From the NCBI GenBank assembly GCA_024867545.1, contig JANFNE010000022.1, forward strand, positions 496,001 through 560,000: DNA of 64,000 bases. Direction: 5' to 3'. The position numbers and the translations under genes are program-made. Positions 698 to 56,699 of the stretch are shown piece by piece. Under the pieces are notes generated by a model that saw nothing but the letters and a program-made list of their open reading frames with translations, did not search any database and was not told the origin of the DNA. The DNA is from Phytopythium helicoides. Lineage: Eukaryota; Oomycota; Peronosporomycetes; Pythiales; Pythiaceae. Numbering within the stretch: the first letter of the stretch is position 1; each line of letters opens with the position of its first letter.

Positions 698-3600
698 TGC
701 GAAGTCCCATGGATGCCGAGAGCCGCCGTGAGTTCCGTGTGGCGAGGTCCCGGTAGCGCCTTGGTCATGATGTCGGCCAGCATCGTCGCAGTCTCGCAGT
801 ACTCGAGCTTGACTTCACCACGCTTGACTACGTCGCGGATGTGATGGTACTTGATGTCGATGTGCTTGGCGCGACCGTGGTTGACCGGGTTCTTGGTCAT
901 CTTGATGCACGACTGGTTGTCTTCGCGGATCATGAGCTCTGGTCCCGATGTGTTCGCAGCCGCAAGGATCTCGCAAACCACGCGATGAATCCACTTGCCT
1001 TCTTGGATGGCTAGGCTGAGCGCGATGTACTCCGCTTCGCTTGTCGACAGAGACACACTTGACTGCTTCTTGCTTCCCCAACTGACCGGCGCGCCCATCA
1101 GCATGAAGGTGTAGCCGGATGTCGACTTGCGATCAGCGAGGTCACCAGCCCAGTCGGCGTCGGAGTAGCCGCGAAAGTCGATGACGTTGCCGGGCTTGAA
1201 GCAGATTCCGTGGTCCTTGGTGCCTTGCAAGTAGCGAAAGATACGCTTGACCGCAACCCAATGCTCCTCTTGCGGGTTCTCCATGAAGCGCGATACGTAG
1301 CCCACGGCGTACGCGATGTCCGGTCGAGTCGCTGTCATCAGATGCATCAAGGCGCCGACCGCTTCCCGAAACGGAGCGTTCACCTTGGTAGATGCGTCGC
1401 TTGGAACCAGACGCGAACTCATGTCGACCGGACTCACCACAGCCTTGCACTGGAGCATGTTGAAGCGTGTGAGGATGTCGTTGATGTAGCGTCGCTGGCA
1501 CAGTGTGATGCTTCCATCGGGTCCATAGACCAACTCGATGCCGAGCACGAACGCACACTTGCCGCTGTCGGTCATCTCGAAGCGCATCTTCAGGTCATAC
1601 TTGGTGCGTGTAATCAGCTCGATTGAGCTTCCCGTCACCAGAACATCGTCGACGTAGACCAAGATAAGCACGCAGTGGTCGTTGACGATCTTGATGTAGA
1701 GACACGGGTCAAACGCTGACACTTGGAAGCCGATGGAGCACACAAACTCGTCGAAGGTCTCGTTCCACACACGCGAAGCTTGCTTGAGGCCGTAGATCGC
1801 CTTCACCAGCTCAAGGCAGTCAAAGCCGCCGTCCAACTCGACGCCTTCTGGAACCACACAGTACACGACCTCCTTCATCACGCCGTATAAGAATGCCGTC
1901 ACCACGTCCAGTTGATCGAGGTGCCAACCAAAGAAGACGATGAGCGCGATCACGATGCGCAGCGTCGCGTACTTGACCACGGGCGAGAACGTTTCCGTGT
2001 AGTCGATGCCGTACTTCTGCTTGAATCCCTTGGCCACGAGGCGTGCCTTGTACTTCTCGATGGACCCGTCAGCCTTTCGCTTGATCTTGAAAACCCACTT
2101 GGTGCCGATGGCGCGTTGTCCCGTTGGAAGCTTGGCCGCACGAAACACGCCTCGAAGTCGCATCGATTCCAGCTCCGCGCGAATCGCTTTGCGCCAGTGA
2201 GCTTGATCCGGGCCGTTCACCGCTTCCTCGAATGTAGTTGGCTCGGAGAGGTCGGAGGCTTCAACAGCGTTCGCGCTCGCTCGCCAAAACACAGGAGGAG
2301 TCGAGGGGTCCGAGCCGTCGTGTTGGCCGCCAGATTTTTCTTCTTCATCTTCTTGGCGTGAGGGAGAGCTGCGCGGCGCACTTGCTTCTTCCAATCCAAC
2401 TCGGTGTCGAACAGCCCGCGATCTTCCAGCAGTGTCATCTTCAGTCGCCGATCGGTTCTTGCGCTTCCCCGCCTGCGTGTAGTCCGTCTGTCCTGGTCCA
2501 TCTTCAGCAATTTCGAGAGAGTCGAAGGCGAGATCATCCACGTCTTCGTCGGAGGCCGCTGACGAGAACCCGAAAGTCGATTCGTCGAAGGTGACATCGC
2601 GAGTGATAACCACCTGCCCCGCCTCGATGTCATAAACCCGATAGGCCTTTGACGCTTCCTCATATCCGACGAACAACCCAGCACGAGACTTCGGGTCCCA
2701 CTTGAGCCGCTTCTCTTTCGGAGTCAGCACGTAAGCGCGACAGCCAAACACACGCATGTGCTTCACACTTGGCTTGGACTTGTACAGAATCTCGAACGGA
2801 GTCTTGTGCTGGAACTTGGGAGACGGTAGACGATTCTTGACATAGATGGCTGTCATCGCTGCCTCAGCCCAGAAGATCTTGTCCATCTTGGCGTGGTGGA
2901 GCATGCTGCGGCCGATCGTGACGATTGTCCGGATGGCTCGCTCTGCTGTGCCGTTGGTCTGGTGCGCGTAGGGAACCGTCGTTTGCTGCTCGATGCCTTC
3001 GTCTTCGTAGAACACCTTGAGCGAGTTGGTGGCAAACTCACGCGCTCCATCATGACGCACGAACTTGACCTTCTTGCCGAATTGGTTCTGGACCTTGGTG
3101 ATGTACGTCTTGATGCAGTCCTCGCTTTCCGACTTGGCACGCAGACAGAATCCCTTCATGCATCCGCTGGCTTCGTCGACGATCAGCAGCAGATACTTGC
3201 TTCCACCCAGAGAGTCTTCTTCCATGGGTCCACAGATGTCGAAGTGGAGCAACTCGAACGTGTCGTAGTGGCGCTTGTCACGGTTGCTTGGAAATGGCCT
3301 TTGGACCATCTTTCCTTGTTGACAGCCGCGGCACACGCTTGGTCCACTCGAGCTGGAGGGTAGCTTCGCGTCCTTGATCATTTCGTTGTCGACCATCTTG
3401 CGAAGCACCTCAACTGGAGCGTGACCCATACGCGCGTGCAGATCAACAGCTCTTCCACTGGTTGCCGCGTTAGCCGATCGCTGAGGTGTGCGAAGCCAGT
3501 AGAGTCCGTCAACGAGGTCTGCCGTCGCCACCACTTGCTTCGAAGCCTTGCGCGCAACATGCATCTTGGTGCCGTCGAAGATCACTTGGAACTGGCCACT

Positions 3601-49020: not shown

Positions 49021-50901
49021 ATGGTCAGCGCAATACCATCGCCGTCGCCAATCGTCACGCCCAAAACCTTCACACCCGGAAGTGCCGGTGGCGTCTACAC
49101 CACCAAACTCTGGGACGAGCGACCGGTCGAGTACTCCAAGAATGTCCTCACTCGAGTCTGTACCTTCATCTTCGTCGCCATTCTCTGCTCAGAGCTGACC
49201 CACTACGGCGTCGTGCAGTCGCTCAAGAACTTCTTCATGGAGCTTGGGTGGTCGAACAAGGGCTCCAACTCGATGAAGACCACGTTCGATTCGGTCTGCC
49301 AATTCGCGTGTGTGCTCACTGGCTACATTGCGGACGAGAAGCTGGGCAAGCTCAACACTCTTATGGCCTCCACGAGTATCAACGCTGTCGGTTTGATTCC
49401 AGTCGCACTCGCTGCAGTGCCTTCGGTGCTGAGCCACATTGGAACAAGCAAGGCGCTGTTCAGTATTGGTTTGTTTTTGGGCATCGGCTTGACCCAAATC
49501 AGTATCACTTCGCTGTCGGTCTCGCTCGGTGGTGACCAATTTTCACCCGTTGCACCTCCCGAGGAGAAGTCCACGTTCTTCAGCATTCACTACGCAGCCG
49601 CCAACTTTGGAACGTTTGTCGCCTATTTGCTCTTCCCCACCATCTCGCTTCACGGACTTGGCGCCATCCCTGCAGACTACGGGTACTTTGCAGTCTATGC
49701 TGCCGGGTTCATCTTGATGCTCGTCATCGTGACTCTGCTTCTCATCTCACGTCGCCGATATGTGAACGTGCCACCTACGTCTCACTCCATTGCAGTCGTC
49801 ATTCGCATCGTTCTTCACCACGCCAAGACCAACTTCCGTGCACGCATGATCGCTCTCGGAACCACTGCCTACTTGCTTGCCGTGGCTCTCAATGTTCCGG
49901 CTGCATTCTTGTCTGATCACGGAAGCATCGGCCACAACCTTTCCTATGTCTCCGGCGCGCTGTCGCTATTTGGAACGGCTATCTGGGTGTACTTTGGTCG
50001 CGACTCGTCGTTTATGGATGGAGCTGATGAGCGTAATGGTGGCAAGTATGACTCGGAGCTCGTCCATGGTGTCAAGCAAGTGATTCGCGTGCTTCCGTTC
50101 AATGCCTTCAACGCATTCTGGTGGATGTGCCAGAACCAGCGTGCGAACAACCAGTCAATCATCCAGCAGACCGATGTGCGTCTGTACAGTGATATCGATT
50201 CGTGGCAGATCCCTGGCCCGACGGTGCAGATGTTCAACCCACTGTCGGCGGTCATCTTTGTGGCGCTCCTGTATCGTGTTATTTTCCCTCGCTACGAGAG
50301 GGTATTCGGCAAGCCGTCAAGCAAATTCGGACGAATCTTGACGGGGTACTTTGTGGCATCTCTTGCCATGTTCTGGTCGGGAGTCTTCGAGACTGTACGC
50401 CGTGACGCTGGACCCATCACGTACATCAACTCGACCGGCGGCGTCGAGTACCTGCTGAACGACGATGGCGGACAGCCCATGAACGACATCAAGTGGTACA
50501 CGGCTCTGGGTCAGTACTTCCTCGTGTCGCTCGCGGGTGCTTTCATTGTGATTCCTTCGTACGACATTTGTTACTCGGAGGTGCCGCAGCGTATGCGCAG
50601 TACGTCTGTGGCACTGAGTTTCTTCGTCATGTCTATTGGGAGCACGTTGCAGTCGTCGCTGGTGCTGCTATTCGGCAAGTACATCACGACGAATCTGAAC
50701 AATGGGCACATGGAGTATCTGTACTACTGCCTGGGATCGATCATGTTCGCGGTTGCGCTGGTGTACATTGTGGTGATGAACCAGATGCAGCTCGGGACGC
50801 TTCCGCCTCTTTCCAAGGATGGAACTACTGGCCGTGAGCAGACTTTGGAGGGTACAACTGGTGCCGTTGCGAAGATATCAACAGCGTCTGAGGATGCCTA
50901 G
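49021..50901 (+). CDS. POT/PTR family transporter, copy 2 (intact)
   Basis: Single exon of 626 residues with about 12 hydrophobic membrane segments. Landmarks are ELTHYGVVQSLKNFFMELG, SITSLSVSLGGDQFSPVAPP (PTR2 signature), FRARMIALGTTAYLLAVAL, FWWMCQNQRANNQSIIQQTD, VQMFNPLSAVIFVALLYRV, and SYDICYSEVPQRMRSTSVAL, followed by a soluble tail. POT family members import small solutes with protons across the plasma or vacuolar membrane. The family includes di/tripeptide and nitrate carriers; the substrate here is not evident. This intact copy shows where copies 1 and 3 are broken. Its middle and 3' parts are almost identical to copy 3 while the 5' part is diverged. Confidence 0.93.
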   Translation: MVSAIPSPSPIVTPKTFTPGSAGGVYTTKLWDERPVEYSKNVLTRVCTFIFVAILCSELTHYGVVQSLKNFFMELGWSNKGSNSMKTTFDSVCQFACVLTGYIADEKLGKLNTLMASTSINAVGLIPVALAAVPSVLSHIGTSKALFSIGLFLGIGLTQISITSLSVSLGGDQFSPVAPPEEKSTFFSIHYAAANFGTFVAYLLFPTISLHGLGAIPADYGYFAVYAAGFILMLVIVTLLLISRRRYVNVPPTSHSIAVVIRIVLHHAKTNFRARMIALGTTAYLLAVALNVPAAFLSDHGSIGHNLSYVSGALSLFGTAIWVYFGRDSSFMDGADERNGGKYDSELVHGVKQVIRVLPFNAFNAFWWMCQNQRANNQSIIQQTDVRLYSDIDSWQIPGPTVQMFNPLSAVIFVALLYRVIFPRYERVFGKPSSKFGRILTGYFVASLAMFWSGVFETVRRDAGPITYINSTGGVEYLLNDDGGQPMNDIKWYTALGQYFLVSLAGAFIVIPSYDICYSEVPQRMRSTSVALSFFVMSIGSTLQSSLVLLFGKYITTNLNNGHMEYLYYCLGSIMFAVALVYIVVMNQMQLGTLPPLSKDGTTGREQTLEGTTGAVAKISTASEDA

Positions 50902-50968
50902 AACGTGTTGGTGAGCTTGAGTTTTGAGCGATGCCGTGTAGATTTCCATGATTGATCAATTCCTTTGA

Positions 50969-50988
50969 ATGGCCGGGGTACCCGGCAT
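50969..50988. repeat. Candidate left inverted repeat of the Fanzor insertion
   Basis: ATGGCCGGGGTACCCGGCAT, nearly palindromic itself, is matched in inverted orientation by 53364-53385 (ATGCCGGGTTTACC, then ACGGCCAT), apart from a 2-nt gap and one mismatch. The pair brackets the Fanzor gene at about 350 bp upstream and 120 bp downstream. No target duplication was identified, so the status is tentative. Confidence 0.4.
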
Positions 50989-51128
50989 TGGCGCTGTGGT
51001 AGATGGCCACAAAAACCTCCATTTCTACATTCACCCTTCTCAGCACAACGATCGACGTAAACTCTCACTCAACCGGAAAACGTGGAAAAGTAGACGTGAA
51101 ACTAAATAAACCTGTGGTTACGGCAAGA

Positions 51129-51183
51129 AAGTTACGCAAGTACAGTGTCTCGGACTCTTGAAGACACTTCAAGAGCGTAACTT
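51129..51183 (+). repeat. Nested hairpin upstream of Fanzor
   Basis: CTCTTGAAG and CTTCAAGAG (51155-51163, 51167-51175) form a 9-bp hairpin with loop ACA, closed by an outer 8-bp stem AAGTTACG / CGTAACTT (51129-51136, 51176-51183). It could be a structured RNA or DNA element of the Fanzor locus. No function is shown. Confidence 0.5.
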
Positions 51184-51321
51184 ACGGTACTTCCCAATTG
51201 ACCGCAGCTCATCAGCTTCAGGCGGGTTGCGCGATGCCTCCCCAGCGATGACAACAGCACTGCATTGACACTTCGTATTGCTTGTTGGAGATGCCATAGG
51301 AAGTATCTCCAGAGCTCCATC

Positions 51322-53241
51322 ATGAGCCACGGCAAGCTAGTAAAGCGGACTTTGCAGCTCTGCCTGCATTCACGTAAACGGTCATGAACTGCTTCCGCAA
51401 CTCGTCGAGGTCGGTCCAAGACAACACGTGCAGCTGGTGCTAGGTCTAAAAGGAAGAAGTGCAGCGCAGAACCACGCAAGAGTCAGTCAAAGAGGCGACG
51501 AGCCGAAGTCGAAGCTCGTGACGCAGCTAACGCCAAATCCTCGCTTGTGTGCGTCAAGACGTCGCTCAAGGCGTTTTGCAAGAGCGATGAGGCCATGACT
51601 TTGCCGTGGGAGTCCGTGCTGGCGGATATGGACCAGGTCGTGCTGGAGGCTTACGTCCTCGCCAACATCCACGCCGTGCGGATGTGTCAGCTGGGCGATG
51701 CAGTGGAGCCACTCAACCAGGTCTTCTTCTACAGATGCCTATCGTGTGTTTGCAACGCCAACTCCACACTCGGGTCTCCTGCATTCCAGCAATCAGTCAC
51801 GCTGTACAACACTTGGCGAGGTGAAGACGCTCGACGTGCAAGCAACCGGCAGATTACCGCTGGGTGGCAGCAGAACGCAGCCCAAATGATGGCCACTAAC
51901 ACCAAGAACGCGATCGTACGCAACTTCTACCGTCGCTTTCACTGTCACATCAAGCGGGTCTATGACTTGAATGGTGCTGAGGCCTACGTCATGATCAAGA
52001 GCATCCTGGACCCTGTCTACAACGGCAACGATACCGAGGTGCAGGCTTGGCGAGAGCAGATCCCGCGCAACGAGAGCGGCTACTTGTCCGACGAGGCTAA
52101 CAGATTGCTTCCTCTCACCTACATGATTCTGACCGACATTGAGGAGAGGAATCGCCGGTTTCAGCATCGACAGGACATCCCAGAGATCCGCACGTTCAGT
52201 CTCCTGCCGACAAAGAATGGGTTCAAGTGCTCGCACTTCAAGATGTGCAAGACGGCGCTCCACAGCCTACTTCTACGTGCTGGTGTTTGTGTGCCTCCTT
52301 TAGGTGACGATTGGAATGCTGTCGCAGACGATTGGTGGCACAGTCTCTTCAATATCGAGAAGTTCGAAACAGCCAACAAGAAGTTCGCAGGAGAGATCGT
52401 GACGGACGGAAAGGCTGTCAGCATCGTCATGCGGAAAACCCATCCGGCGACAGACCGCCCACTTAGGGAAGAAGATTATGATGTCGTGTGGGGCCTAGAT
52501 CCTGGCAGACGAGATCTGTTTGTAGCAACCAACCAGGACGGCGAGACTATCCATTGCTCTTCTCGTGAGTTCTACGAGGATGCTCGCTACCACAAGAGCA
52601 ACCAGAAGATAGCTTGCTGGAAGGAGCGGCGTCCCGACATTTTGGCGGCCGAGCGTCAGATGCCGTCGAAGAAGACCGCGTCGCTCGAGTTGCTGGAAAC
52701 GTACACACGATACGTTATTCCACGTATGGAAAACCTGCTAGGATTTTCACGGACGAAGGGATTCCGCAACCTGCGTTTTGGTCGGTACATCTTTGCGCAG
52801 AAAAAGCTTCATGAACTATGTCGGAGACTGACCCAGCAAGCAGGCAGGCGAACGGTGGTTGGATTTGGAGATTGGAGCAATACCGATTACTCTGGACTCA
52901 TCAAGAAGTGCCCCGCGGGGCCGGTCAAGAGACTCGAGCACACATTGAGAAACTACTGTCGTGTGCAACCAATTGATGAGTTTCGCACCAGCAAGCTTCA
53001 CTCACGTTGCCACCGGCGGCTAGAATACCAGTACAGTCTCCGCCTCTGCAAGGTCAAGAACAGCACGGACAAGGAATGGCGGACGTGCAAGGTTTATAGT
53101 GTGCTCCATTGTCGATCCAATGGCTGTTTTGGTACTACTGTGAACCGCGACGTCAACGCCTCCAAGAACATGCTGATGCTTCTTTTCTACATGCTTCGTG
53201 GTCAACCAAGACCTAACGTTTTCTGTCGAGCGCCAACTTAA
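51322..53241 (+). CDS. Fanzor (eukaryotic TnpB homologue, RuvC nuclease)
   Basis: Exon 1 51322-51373, intron 51374-51433 (GTAAAC...CAG, which removes an in-frame TGA) and exon 2 51434-53241 give 619 residues. A basic nuclear-localisation-like segment lies near the N-terminus (RSKRKKC, KSQSKRRR). The C-terminal half has the split RuvC fold: VVWGLDPGRRDLFVATN with Asp373 (RuvC-I), VVGFGDWSNTDYS (RuvC-II strand, Asp497 where TnpB has Glu), IDEFRTSKLHSRCH with Glu533, a zinc-ribbon remnant (LHCRSNGCFGTTV), and NRDVNASKNM with Asp590 (RuvC-III). The central segment AGEIVTDGKAVSIVMRK is typical of Fanzors. Characterised Fanzors are RNA-guided DNA endonucleases carried by eukaryotic mobile elements. 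The frame is intact. The locus sits between POT2 and a methionine sulfoxide reductase gene. The guide RNA is not identified; the 3' flank is the first place to look. Confidence 0.88.
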
Positions 53242-53363
53242 CACATCAGGGGCCACAAAGTGTCTGCAGGTGCGCTCAGCGTTGCCCACAGATAGCACTG
53301 TATACTCAGGCATTGTTGCATTTTCACTGGGTTCCATTCCCAGTCATCGTCTTTTATCGTAGG

Positions 53364-53385
53364 ATGCCGGGTTTACCACGGCCAT
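53364..53385. repeat. Candidate right inverted repeat of the Fanzor insertion
   Basis: This is the inverted partner of 50969-50988. It lies 122 bp after the Fanzor stop codon. The stretch between the stop and this site (53242-53363) includes a small hairpin CTGGG...CCCAG near 53337-53353 and would be the place for a guide (omega-type) RNA by analogy with TnpB elements (inference). Confidence 0.4.
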
Positions 53386-53571
53386 ACCCGCGAGCCGAAG
53401 GCGAGTGCTAGCAATGGGTTATACTTCTTACATTTGTTGGAGATGATGTCTACTTTTTGCTAGCCGAGGAGTGCCAGCTAACTAACTGTTAGATTGTATC
53501 TCTTGTCAAATCTCGTGAGGAGCTGTATTTCCGCACTCAGACTACGTCTCACGAAACGCCTCCTATGACTA

Positions 53572-54123
53572 CTACAACGGAGGCACGTCGCTCGGCTGGA
53601 ACACCAACGAAACGCTGTTCACACAGTGACGCTCGTCCGTCGGCGTCTTGAACCCTTCGCCCTTGATCACATGACCCATATGCCTGGACACAAGTCACGT
53701 GTGAGCCGCATGCAGATATTGACACACCACGAGCACCTACGGCAAGCTCGCACTCACCCGTCGCACTTGGCACACACAATCTCGCACGCCACGCCGTGCG
53801 GATCGAGTTCGAGCTGTCCATTTTGGATCAAACACCGCACACTATCACCGTTAGTGCAGGAAAGCGGACGGAACACCGTTTTCCTGAGCACGACCGTTCA
53901 CCTTGATGGCGCCGGGGATGGCCTGGTAGAACGCCGGCCAGCCACAGCCCGAGTCGAACTTGGTTGTGGACGTGTAGAGCGGGGCCTTGCACCCAGCGCA
54001 CACGTAGGTTCCCTCATCGAAGTGTGCGTTGTACTCCCCCGATCCTTGCGGTTCCGTCCCCTTGAGACGCAGCACCTCGTACTGCAGGGGCGTGAGCTGC
54101 TGCTGCCCGTTGGCCTCCGCCAT
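53572..54123 (-). CDS. MSRB: Methionine-R-sulfoxide reductase B
   Basis: Exons 54123-53875, 53813-53758 and 53683-53572 give 138 residues. Landmarks are the zinc Cys pairs CAGC and CAKC, CGWPAFYQAIPGAIKVN, GHMGHVIKGEGF, and the catalytic-Cys motif RHCVNSVSLVF. The enzyme reduces free or protein-bound methionine-R-sulfoxide with thioredoxin. No leader peptide is seen, so it is probably cytosolic. Intron 1 starts with GTTCCG and was placed by frame and family continuity (AQENG to LELDPHGV). It runs opposite to Fanzor and POT3 and is an ordinary host gene. Confidence 0.92.
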
Positions 54124-54827: not shown

Positions 54828-56699
54828 ATGGCGAAGGCGGTTGCGTCCACATCACCGGTGCTCACACCCAAGACGTTCACGCCAGGCAGCGCCGGTGGCG
54901 CCTACAGTACTCAGCTCTGGGATCAACGACCTGTCAAGTATGCTCAGAACGTCATCACCCGCGTGTGCATCTTCATCTTCGTGCTCGCGCTGTTTTCGGA
55001 GCTCACGCACTTCGGTGTCGTGCAGTCCCTTAAGAACTTCTTCATGAAACTCGGATGGTCGAACAAGGGCTCCAACTCGATGAAGACCACGTTCGACTCC
55101 ATCTGTCAATTTGCGTGCATTATTATGGGCTACCTTGCCGACGAGAAGCTGGGCAAGTTCAAGGCTCTGCTCACTGCCAGCACCATGAACTGCATTGGTT
55201 TGATCCCCGTCGCAATCGCTGCTCTCCCTACTGTCCTCGATCACCTCGGAACGAGCAAGGCACTGTTCAACATTGGATTGTTCGTCGGTATCAGTCTCAC
55301 CCAGACCAGCATGATGTCGCTGTCGGTGTCCCTCGGCGGCGACCAGTTTTCGCCAAATGCGTCGGCTGACGAAAAGGCAACCTTCTTCAGCATCCACTAC
55401 TGGTCGGGCAACTGTGGCACTTTTCTTGCGTACCTGCTGCTCCCGACGATCTCCATTCACGGGCTCGGTGCCATCTCCCAGGAGTACGGATACTTCAGTG
55501 TTTACATCGGCGGCGTTATTCTGATGCTCCTCACTGTGGCGCTGCTTCTCGTCTCACGACCACGTTACGTGCAAGTGCCACCTACGTCTCACTCCATTGC
55601 AGTCGTCATTCGCATCGTTCTTCACCACGCCAAGACCAACTTCCGTGCACGCATGATTGCTCTCGGAACCACTGCCTACTTGCTTGCCGTGGCTCTCAAT
55701 GTTCCGGCTGCATTCTTGTCAGACCATGGAAGCATCGGCCACAACCTTTCCTATGTCTCCGGCGCGCTGTCGCTATTTGGAACGGCTATCTGGGTGTACT
55801 TTGGTCGCGACTCGTCGTTCATGGATGGAGCTGATGAGCGTAATGGTGGCAAGTATGACTCGGAGCTCGTCCATGGTGTCAAGCAAGTGATTCGCGTGCT
55901 TCCGTTCAATGCCTTCAACGCGTTCTGGTGGATGTGCCAGAACCAGCGTGCAAACAACCAGTCTATCATCCAGCAGACTGATGTGCGTCTGTACAGCGAT
56001 ATCGATTCGTGGCAGATTCCTGGCCCGACGATGCAGATGTTCAACCCACTGTCAGCTATTGTTTGGGTTCCACTGCTCTATCGTGTCGTCTTCCCGATCT
56101 ACGAGAAGTTTGCTGGTAAGCCTGCTAGCAAGTTTGGCAAGATCCTCACGGGGTACTTTATTGCGTCAATCGCCATGTTCTGGTCGGGAGTCTTCGAGAC
56201 TGTACGCCGTGACGCTGGACCCATCACGTACATCAACTCGACCGGCGGCGTCGAGTACCTGCTGAACGACGATGGCGGACAGCCCATGAACGACATCAAG
56301 TGGTACACGGCTCTGGGTCAGTACTTCCTCGTGTCGCTCGCGGGTGCTTTCATTGTGATTCCTTCGTACGACATTTGTTACTCGGAGGTGCCGCAGCGTA
56401 TGCGCAGTACGTCTGTGGCACTGAGCTTCTTCGTCATGTCTATTGGAGCACGTTGCAGTCATCGCTGGTGCTGCTATTCGGTGATTACATCACGACGAAT
56501 CTGAACAATGGGCACATGGAGTATCTGTACTACTGCCTGGGATCGATCATGTTCGCAGGTTGCGCTGGTGTACATTGTGGTGATGAACCAGATGCAGCTT
56601 GGGACGATCCCGCCGGTTGGTACCGAGACCACCCCGGCACTCCAAGAGGCAGAGAATGGCAGTCAGCAGAAGGGTTCGACAGCGTCCGAAGGCGCGTAG
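54828..56699 (+). pseudogene. POT/PTR family transporter, copy 3 (two compensating indels)
   Basis: Starts MAKAVASTSPVLTPKTFTPG. It is the same protein as copy 2 up to SFFVMSIG. There one G is missing (GGG to GG near 56445), shifting the frame through QSSLVLLFGDYITTN and MEYLYYCLGSIMFA, and one extra A near 56557 shifts it again, to VALVYIVVMNQMQLG and the stop at 56699. The region between the two indels is otherwise conserved. From about 55577 the DNA is nearly identical to copy 2 except for a diverged island at about 56033-56172. The 5' third differs at many sites. It is either a recent pseudogene or an intact gene with two consensus errors. Confidence 0.82.

Follow-up and report, generated by a model that had tools for sequence, protein, structure and literature searches.

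The stretch of DNA analysed here (the window) comprises 64,000 nucleotides of contig JANFNE010000022.1 of the oomycete Phytopythium helicoides and carries a gene for Fanzor1, a TnpB-like nuclease. This gene is probably part of a young, multicopy (roughly a hundred copies), non-autonomous rolling-circle element of the Helitron2/Helentron type, in which it is the only long open frame and of which one copy lies in the window. The gene of full-length copies has no introns and encodes 659 amino acids from an ATG in Kozak context. An earlier note on this DNA had described an intact gene at 51322..53241; these limits are too narrow for the element, which extends from 50968 to 53414, and the word intact is unsupported for the window copy because the family start codon is deleted in it. 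Since both ends carry AA, the termini of the element can be placed only to within about 3 nt. Published systems are characterised below from excerpts of the respective papers (PMC3627910, PMC10432273, PMC10711439 and PMC4067079). The element, its parts outside the gene and its right flank are the following, where ATIR stands for asymmetric terminal inverted repeat:

50968..53414, plus strand: whole mobile element, from copy comparison, end profiles, end pairing and the empty sites of three other copies
50968..50989, plus strand: 5′-terminal palindrome AATGGCCGGGGTACCCGGCATT (5′ ATIR and hairpin), from conservation in the copies, genome occurrences and DNA fold
51129..51183, plus strand: inverted repeat in the 5′ untranslated part, from copy comparison
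53242..53414, plus strand: 3′ untranslated part, candidate guide-RNA scaffold, from conservation and folding
53364..53385, plus strand: 3′ ATIR ATGCCGGGTTTACCACGGCCAT, 29 nt inside the 3′ end, from the copies and the Helitron2 definition (PMC3627910)
53389..53407, plus strand: 3′ hairpin candidate CGCGAGCCGAAGGCGAGTG, stem by eye, DNA fold not significant
53415..53434, plus strand: right-flank host DNA, the expected guide of the RNA of this copy, by comparison with SpuFz1 and other OMEGA systems (PMC10432273)

Copies were searched in the window's own genome (49,062,832 bases in 100 contigs). At least 79 matches to the Fanzor protein were obtained, which correspond to about 77 loci because two loci were counted twice; the first 40 rows of the 79 matches were recounted. 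All 564 query residues were covered without a stop in 28 of the 79 matches, and an open frame of 662 or 663 codons was present in 22. The recent activity that the earlier note had considered is thereby supported for the family, which appears functional. The full-length element measures about 2.6 kb in a comparison of 30 copies, while the window copy has 2447 bp. The 27-nt 3′ end occurs 121 times and the 27-nt 5′ end 81 times in the genome with up to 3 mismatches, and the reversed-pattern control gave 0 occurrences for either. Among the matches listed, 61 of the 81 5′ ends were paired with a 3′ end at a spacing of mostly 2.3-2.7 kb, and the 5′ end was absent for 41 of 100 3′ ends; the pairing leaves aside 20 of the 81 5′ ends, which have no listed 3′ partner, and 21 of the 121 3′ ends, which are unlisted. 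The long palindrome at 51129-51183 is found in some copies and not in others (absent in L002).

The protein was assigned to Fanzor1 by sequence, fold and motifs. As the earlier note had proposed for this oomycete, a Fanzor match was obtained (SpuFz1, E=5.2e-11), together with 53 homologues at E≤0.001. In the structure comparison the top seven matches were the three solved Fanzor1s, well above the rows of Cas12 and Fanzor2, and the WED/REC/RuvC/TNB fold of Fanzor1 was recovered; this match was strong, though the sole Pfam match, a Cas12f1-like TNB domain, lay under Pfam's cut-off. The refutations set out in the earlier note, a missing profile match or a structural misfit, were therefore not borne out. 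The frame running to 53241 with GLDPGRRD, TSK..C, CxxxxC and NRDVNAS was seen as previously described, with the basic stretch upstream in frame. The CxxxxC had been taken for a remnant; the motif is there and makes up the latter half of a putative zinc ribbon, the first half of which is HxxC in 31 and CxxC in 8 of 39 aligned relatives; the zinc finger expected of Fanzor1 is of the CxxC...CxxC type. A TDG motif, a RuvC-I DPG and a relocated RuvC-II glutamate directly before the zinc motif are named as Fanzor1 features (PMC10711439), and all of them are present here. Motif counts in the following lines refer to 39 aligned of 54 proteins (38 of the 53 homologues and the window frame), and residue numbers to the 564-amino-acid frame beginning at 51547:

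52402..52410, plus strand: TDG motif of the WED domain, residues 286-288 (T 36, D 38 and G 38 of 39)
52498..52506, plus strand: RuvC-I DPG, D318-G320 (D 38/39, P and G 39/39)
52978..52980, plus strand: relocated RuvC-II glutamate E478 in DEFRTS (E 38/39)
52999..53127, plus strand: zinc ribbon HxxC...CxxxxC (H485, C488, C522, C527), from the alignment, with putative zinc binding
53149..53151, plus strand: RuvC-III aspartate D535 in NRD (D 36/39)

RNA-guided DNA cleavage is predicted for the family protein. The closest named relative is found in G. ultimum (62% identity), followed by P. nicotianae (55%), with further homologues in Nothophytophthora, P. capsici and P. palmivora and green-algal ones (Asterochloris, Klebsormidium) at 43-45% identity. 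In a tree of 36 rows, all named oomycete rows and two environmental ones formed a clade of 11 rows with support 100/99. A protein labelled as originating from a Thermoplasmata metagenome-assembled genome (MAG; P0015) is 46% identical and adjoins the oomycete clade (83/82); its label probably reflects eukaryotic contamination of the MAG. No relatives were found in scans of genome-contig and viral-contig collections.

The assignment of the element to Helitron2 was based on its ends and its insertion sites. Non-autonomous Helitron2 elements have a hairpin-forming 5′ ATIR 0-2 bp from the end (PMC3627910), and the present family has such a terminal palindrome, the DNA fold of which was equalled by 10 of 200 shuffles. 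On the 3′ side, an ATIR similar to the 5′ palindrome is located 29 nt inside the terminus and is followed by a weak hairpin, and the surplus of 3′ ends over 5′ ends (121 vs 81) corresponds to the 5′ truncation of Helitron2. When the joined flanks of 17 insertions were searched, empty relatives were found for three of them (L024 one, L030 one, L010 four), and TGAA stands at the insertion point in all six empty sites. The flanks overlap by 4, 2 and 0 nt in the three tests, and no target duplication above 2-4 bp was seen. Of 21 5′ flanks, 16 have T at -2 and 12 have G at -1, and the first base of the 3′ flank is T in 29 of 37.

Several observations speak against this assignment and its sampling. 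The 30 copies compared first were the best protein matches, a selection that favours intact ones. The 3′ hairpin is weak and its DNA folds are not significant, and copy L014 carries a 6-7-nt repeat at its ends, which is taken as chance. No element ends were found in common with any of the 33 Rep-helicase matches in the genome, a comparison limited to little-diverged ends and to the listed 3′ ends, and no 5′ end or listed 3′ end was located within 30 kb of a Rep-helicase save at one place on C1. That place (C1 626.6-651.6 kb) was rejected as the autonomous partner, as it is a Fanzor copy split by a Helitron pair. The Rep-helicase regions L061-L064 (C1, C23, C35) were rejected because they have no ends in common with the element, and the widely spaced pairs of ends at C1:1714703 and C26:404806 enclose unrelated insertions with, by eye, a MULE-like and a Ser/Gly-rich frame, respectively. 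Since a Rep-helicase element with the same ends was not found, the mobilising enzyme is inferred and the element is called Helitron2-like.

The same lack of a Rep-helicase element with these ends would fit a mover other than a Helitron, i.e. a DDE, tyrosine or serine recombinase causing a short or no target duplication, with the palindromic ends being incidental. A 2-4-bp duplication of AA or AAAT is possible at two of the three empty sites, and other oomycete Fanzor1 elements are Mariner elements (PMC3627910). We consider such a mover rather unlikely, as the palindromic 5′ end, the surplus of 3′ ends and the asymmetric inverted repeat located 29 nt inside the 3′ terminus together fit the Helitron2 definition, and neither an ordinary terminal inverted repeat nor a constant TA was seen.

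The examination of interrupted copies and Rep-helicase loci yielded additional observations. In the split copy on C1 (L061, L062, L065; 626.5-651.7 kb) two tandem Rep-helicase Helitron genes lie inside the Fanzor element at element position ~1305, and this copy marks the point of Helitron insertion. The 5′ part of copy L013 is interrupted by an insertion (L070, C1:1714680-1717900) with a 416-amino-acid frame resembling a MULE transposase by eye, and copy L003 carries a 2.95-kb insertion near its 5′ end (L071, C26:401700-404830) with long Ser/Gly-rich repetitive frames by eye. Rep-helicase genes stand in regular arrays with a spacing of ~9-12 kb (C35 18-42 kb, C17, C23, C26).

Among known systems, the non-autonomous Helitron2 elements CRe-1, CRe-2 and CRe-3 of Chlamydomonas reinhardtii (PMC3627910) share with the present family the Fanzor1 cargo, the 5′ hairpin, asymmetric inverted repeats, frequent 5′ truncation with retained 3′ ends and, apparently, full-length insertions without duplication. 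Unlike them, the present family resides in an oomycete, has an intronless gene (5-10 exons there) and a TGAA-like target (TTTT there); their same-end Helitron and 7-19-bp duplications were not seen here. SPu-1 of Spizellomyces punctatus with SpuFz1 (PMC10432273, PDB 8gkh) is alike in its Fanzor1 fold, catalytic residues, one-frame element of ~2 kb and many loci with ends in which the full gene is absent. It differs in 33-bp inverted repeats and TA duplications (PMC3627910) and in a CCCC zinc finger, which is HCCC here, with 18-20% identity over the fold. PUl-1, PUl-4 and PCa-1 of Pythium and Phytophthora are also oomycete Fanzor1 elements, but of Mariner type with inverted repeats and TA duplications; they are set apart here by their descriptions and not by named protein sequences (PMC3627910). 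Helentron/HINE elements and proto-Helentron-Pi (PMC4067079) likewise have palindromic subterminal repeats and a 3′ palindrome, and the 3′ CTAG of Helentron/HINE also occurs in the present family, three bases inside the end; in contrast, no Fanzor is described in the excerpt on these elements, which insert in TT or at A/T. Fanzor1 is thus known in Helitron2 from Chlamydomonas and in oomycetes from Mariner elements (PMC3627910), and no Fanzor on a Helitron in an oomycete is reported in the titles and abstract openings of the listed Fanzor papers on oomycetes, Phytophthora or Helitrons.

The 3′ part of the element is a candidate guide-RNA scaffold, for which the right flank would serve as guide. 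Its 174 nt are about half as variable as third codon positions (95% bootstrap.013-.026 vs.032-.049; permutation p=0.002). The last 221 nt fold with a z of -2.83 (2 of 200 shuffles equally good), and the last 180 nt reach -3.52 in sense orientation, the lowest among 36 folds, against -0.92 for the antisense of the same stretch. What counts against a structured RNA is that the overlapping fold window 2400-2580 reaches a z of only -0.94, so that the signal hangs on the last 36 nt, and that no two-sided compensatory changes were found in 40 copies (28 one-sided kept vs 35 broken cells). The conservation could instead be due to transposition ends alone, as ends required for transposition would likewise be conserved; the absent covariation, the unremarkable overlapping window and the lack of an Rfam match for the 3′ part suit that explanation. 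We regard it as unlikely, since low diversity spans most of the 174 nt and not just the last 50 (with the exception of one 20-nt block at.039), the 5′ part varies as much as third codon positions, and excess folding is confined to the sense strand.

The N-terminal part of the gene was the main point of revision, as the plausible first reading of an intact gene with an intron is corrected here to a start-deleted copy. Three segments are concerned:

51322..51373, plus strand: exon 1 of the earlier note (ATG, 17 codons), with the ATG in 25/25 covering copies and coding constraint not seen
51374..51433, plus strand: 60-nt intron of the earlier note, unproven, holding the deletion scar (~51386-51388) and an in-frame TGA (51385-51387)
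51388..53241, plus strand: Fanzor1 open frame without the family start codon and the first ~36 codons, with the stop TAA at 53239-53241

After the TGA, the next in-frame ATG of the window copy is at 51595. According to the copy alignments, 220 bp of the full-length copies are missing at ~51386/51387, and the missing segment contains CCACCATGG, from which the full-length copies read the intronless 659 amino acids. All 25 copies that cover the position have the ATG of this unspliced frame. The N-terminus of the P. nicotianae protein (MATKRPRLDAEDDPGP) and that of the family (MANKRARSGKEGDPGP) are identical in 9 of 16 residues after the Met, a score reached by 0 of 100,000 shuffles, and the unspliced ATG is therefore taken as the family start. 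Six loci (window, L022, L027, L066, L067, L068) show the deletion junction on direct reading, and a pattern search finds it in 16; hence the form with the deletion has itself spread or been copied. A spliced retro-copy as origin of the short form was ruled out, since GT is absent at the start of the missing 220 bp.

The earlier note had the window copy as an intact expressed gene, the message of which would be spliced once. Removal of 51374-51433 (60 nt, GT...AG) indeed drops the TGA and gives 619 residues and a stop from ATG 51322, and the splice stays in frame also in full-length copy L002 as a 280-nt intron. Moreover, among aligned copies with the bases concerned, 23 of 24 retain the donor GT and 29 of 29 the acceptor AG, ATG 51322 is conserved, residues 1-52 of the unspliced frame are unconstrained among the family members (11 nonsynonymous and 3 synonymous shared changes), and the deletion form is present at 16 loci. 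Nevertheless, a spliced 619-residue Fanzor appears improbable: full-length copies are ~220 bp longer and read through without an intron, the unspliced frame has the conserved ATG within CCACCATGG and matches the P. nicotianae protein over the 16 residues after the Met, the alternative coding part (463-619) shows 3 indel events in 2 of 21 copies vs 12 in 8 of 21 directly upstream, and the 17-codon exon is itself unconstrained (shared changes 3 nonsynonymous, 1 synonymous). The family does not need the intron.

Selection on the gene was assessed from the diversity among copies. In the 30 best protein matches diversity amounted to.0184,.0148 and.0401 for codon positions 1, 2 and 3, to.0415 in the 5′ part and to.0189 in the 3′ part. 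Among 42 copies, changes private to one copy comprised 147 synonymous, 357 nonsynonymous and 15 stops (omega ~1.04), whereas those shared by at least two copies comprised 84, 86 and 2, respectively (omega ~0.44); the neutral ratio used for omega was estimated by us on the basis of the 5′ part and of third codon positions. In 12 copies selected through the 3′ end instead of the protein, omega was 1.29 for private and 0.44 for shared changes; for the 30 best protein matches the whole frame gave 0.79 and 0.30, respectively. As private changes are about neutral and shared ones constrained, the data are read as purifying selection in source copies followed by neutral decay. The purifying selection on shared variants would also be expected of a domesticated gene kept for a host function, the retention envisaged in the earlier note, which is extremely improbable and was rejected in view of the multicopy state (at least 79 matches at scattered sites with common ends), the neutral-looking private mutations and the empty sites.

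For the Helitron2-like element, the following mechanism is proposed. Source copies would make the nuclease, which would cut the still-empty allele beside a motif derived from the left flank (about TGAA), and repair would then copy the element across; mobility would be provided in trans by a Helitron Rep-helicase. The window copy is without a protein start, though the candidate guide RNA and the two ends are retained; most likely it is therefore guide-only or dead. As a less likely possibility, we tentatively suggest that most family copies, the window's included, are guide-only and contribute a 3′ RNA guided by their own right flank, and that the few intact ones supply one shared Fanzor homing on the empty allele. 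Homing and guide-only loci were already proposed by Saito et al. (PMC10432273), so the favoured mechanism is theirs, applied here to better-resolved copies. If the guide-only reading holds, Fanzor in a replicative rolling-circle element would be a homing (gene-drive-like) partner instead of an aid to repair, and selection on the protein would act only in the source lineage, as the contrast of private and shared changes suggests. The role of Fanzor for its transposon can be addressed in this natural family of near-identical copies, which offers intact, start-deleted and 5′-truncated copies, mapped ends, empty sites and the contrast of selected source with neutral private changes. RNA from the 3′ end with the right flank as guide is predicted, as is cleavage of empty alleles by the nuclease beside the TGAA-like motif.

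In the vicinity of the element, two adjoining peptide-transporter (PTR2) genes at 49021-50901 and 54828-56504 share near-identical protein and DNA stretches, as after recent duplication or gene conversion. The best named relatives of the adjoining peptide-transporter gene reach at most 58% (Phytophthora, Globisporangium), and metagenome rows up to 79%. Together with the tree of Fanzor homologues, this places the host among oomycetes close to these genera. Directly downstream of the element, a frame on the minus strand at 53851-54123 resembles methionine sulfoxide reductase B by eye.
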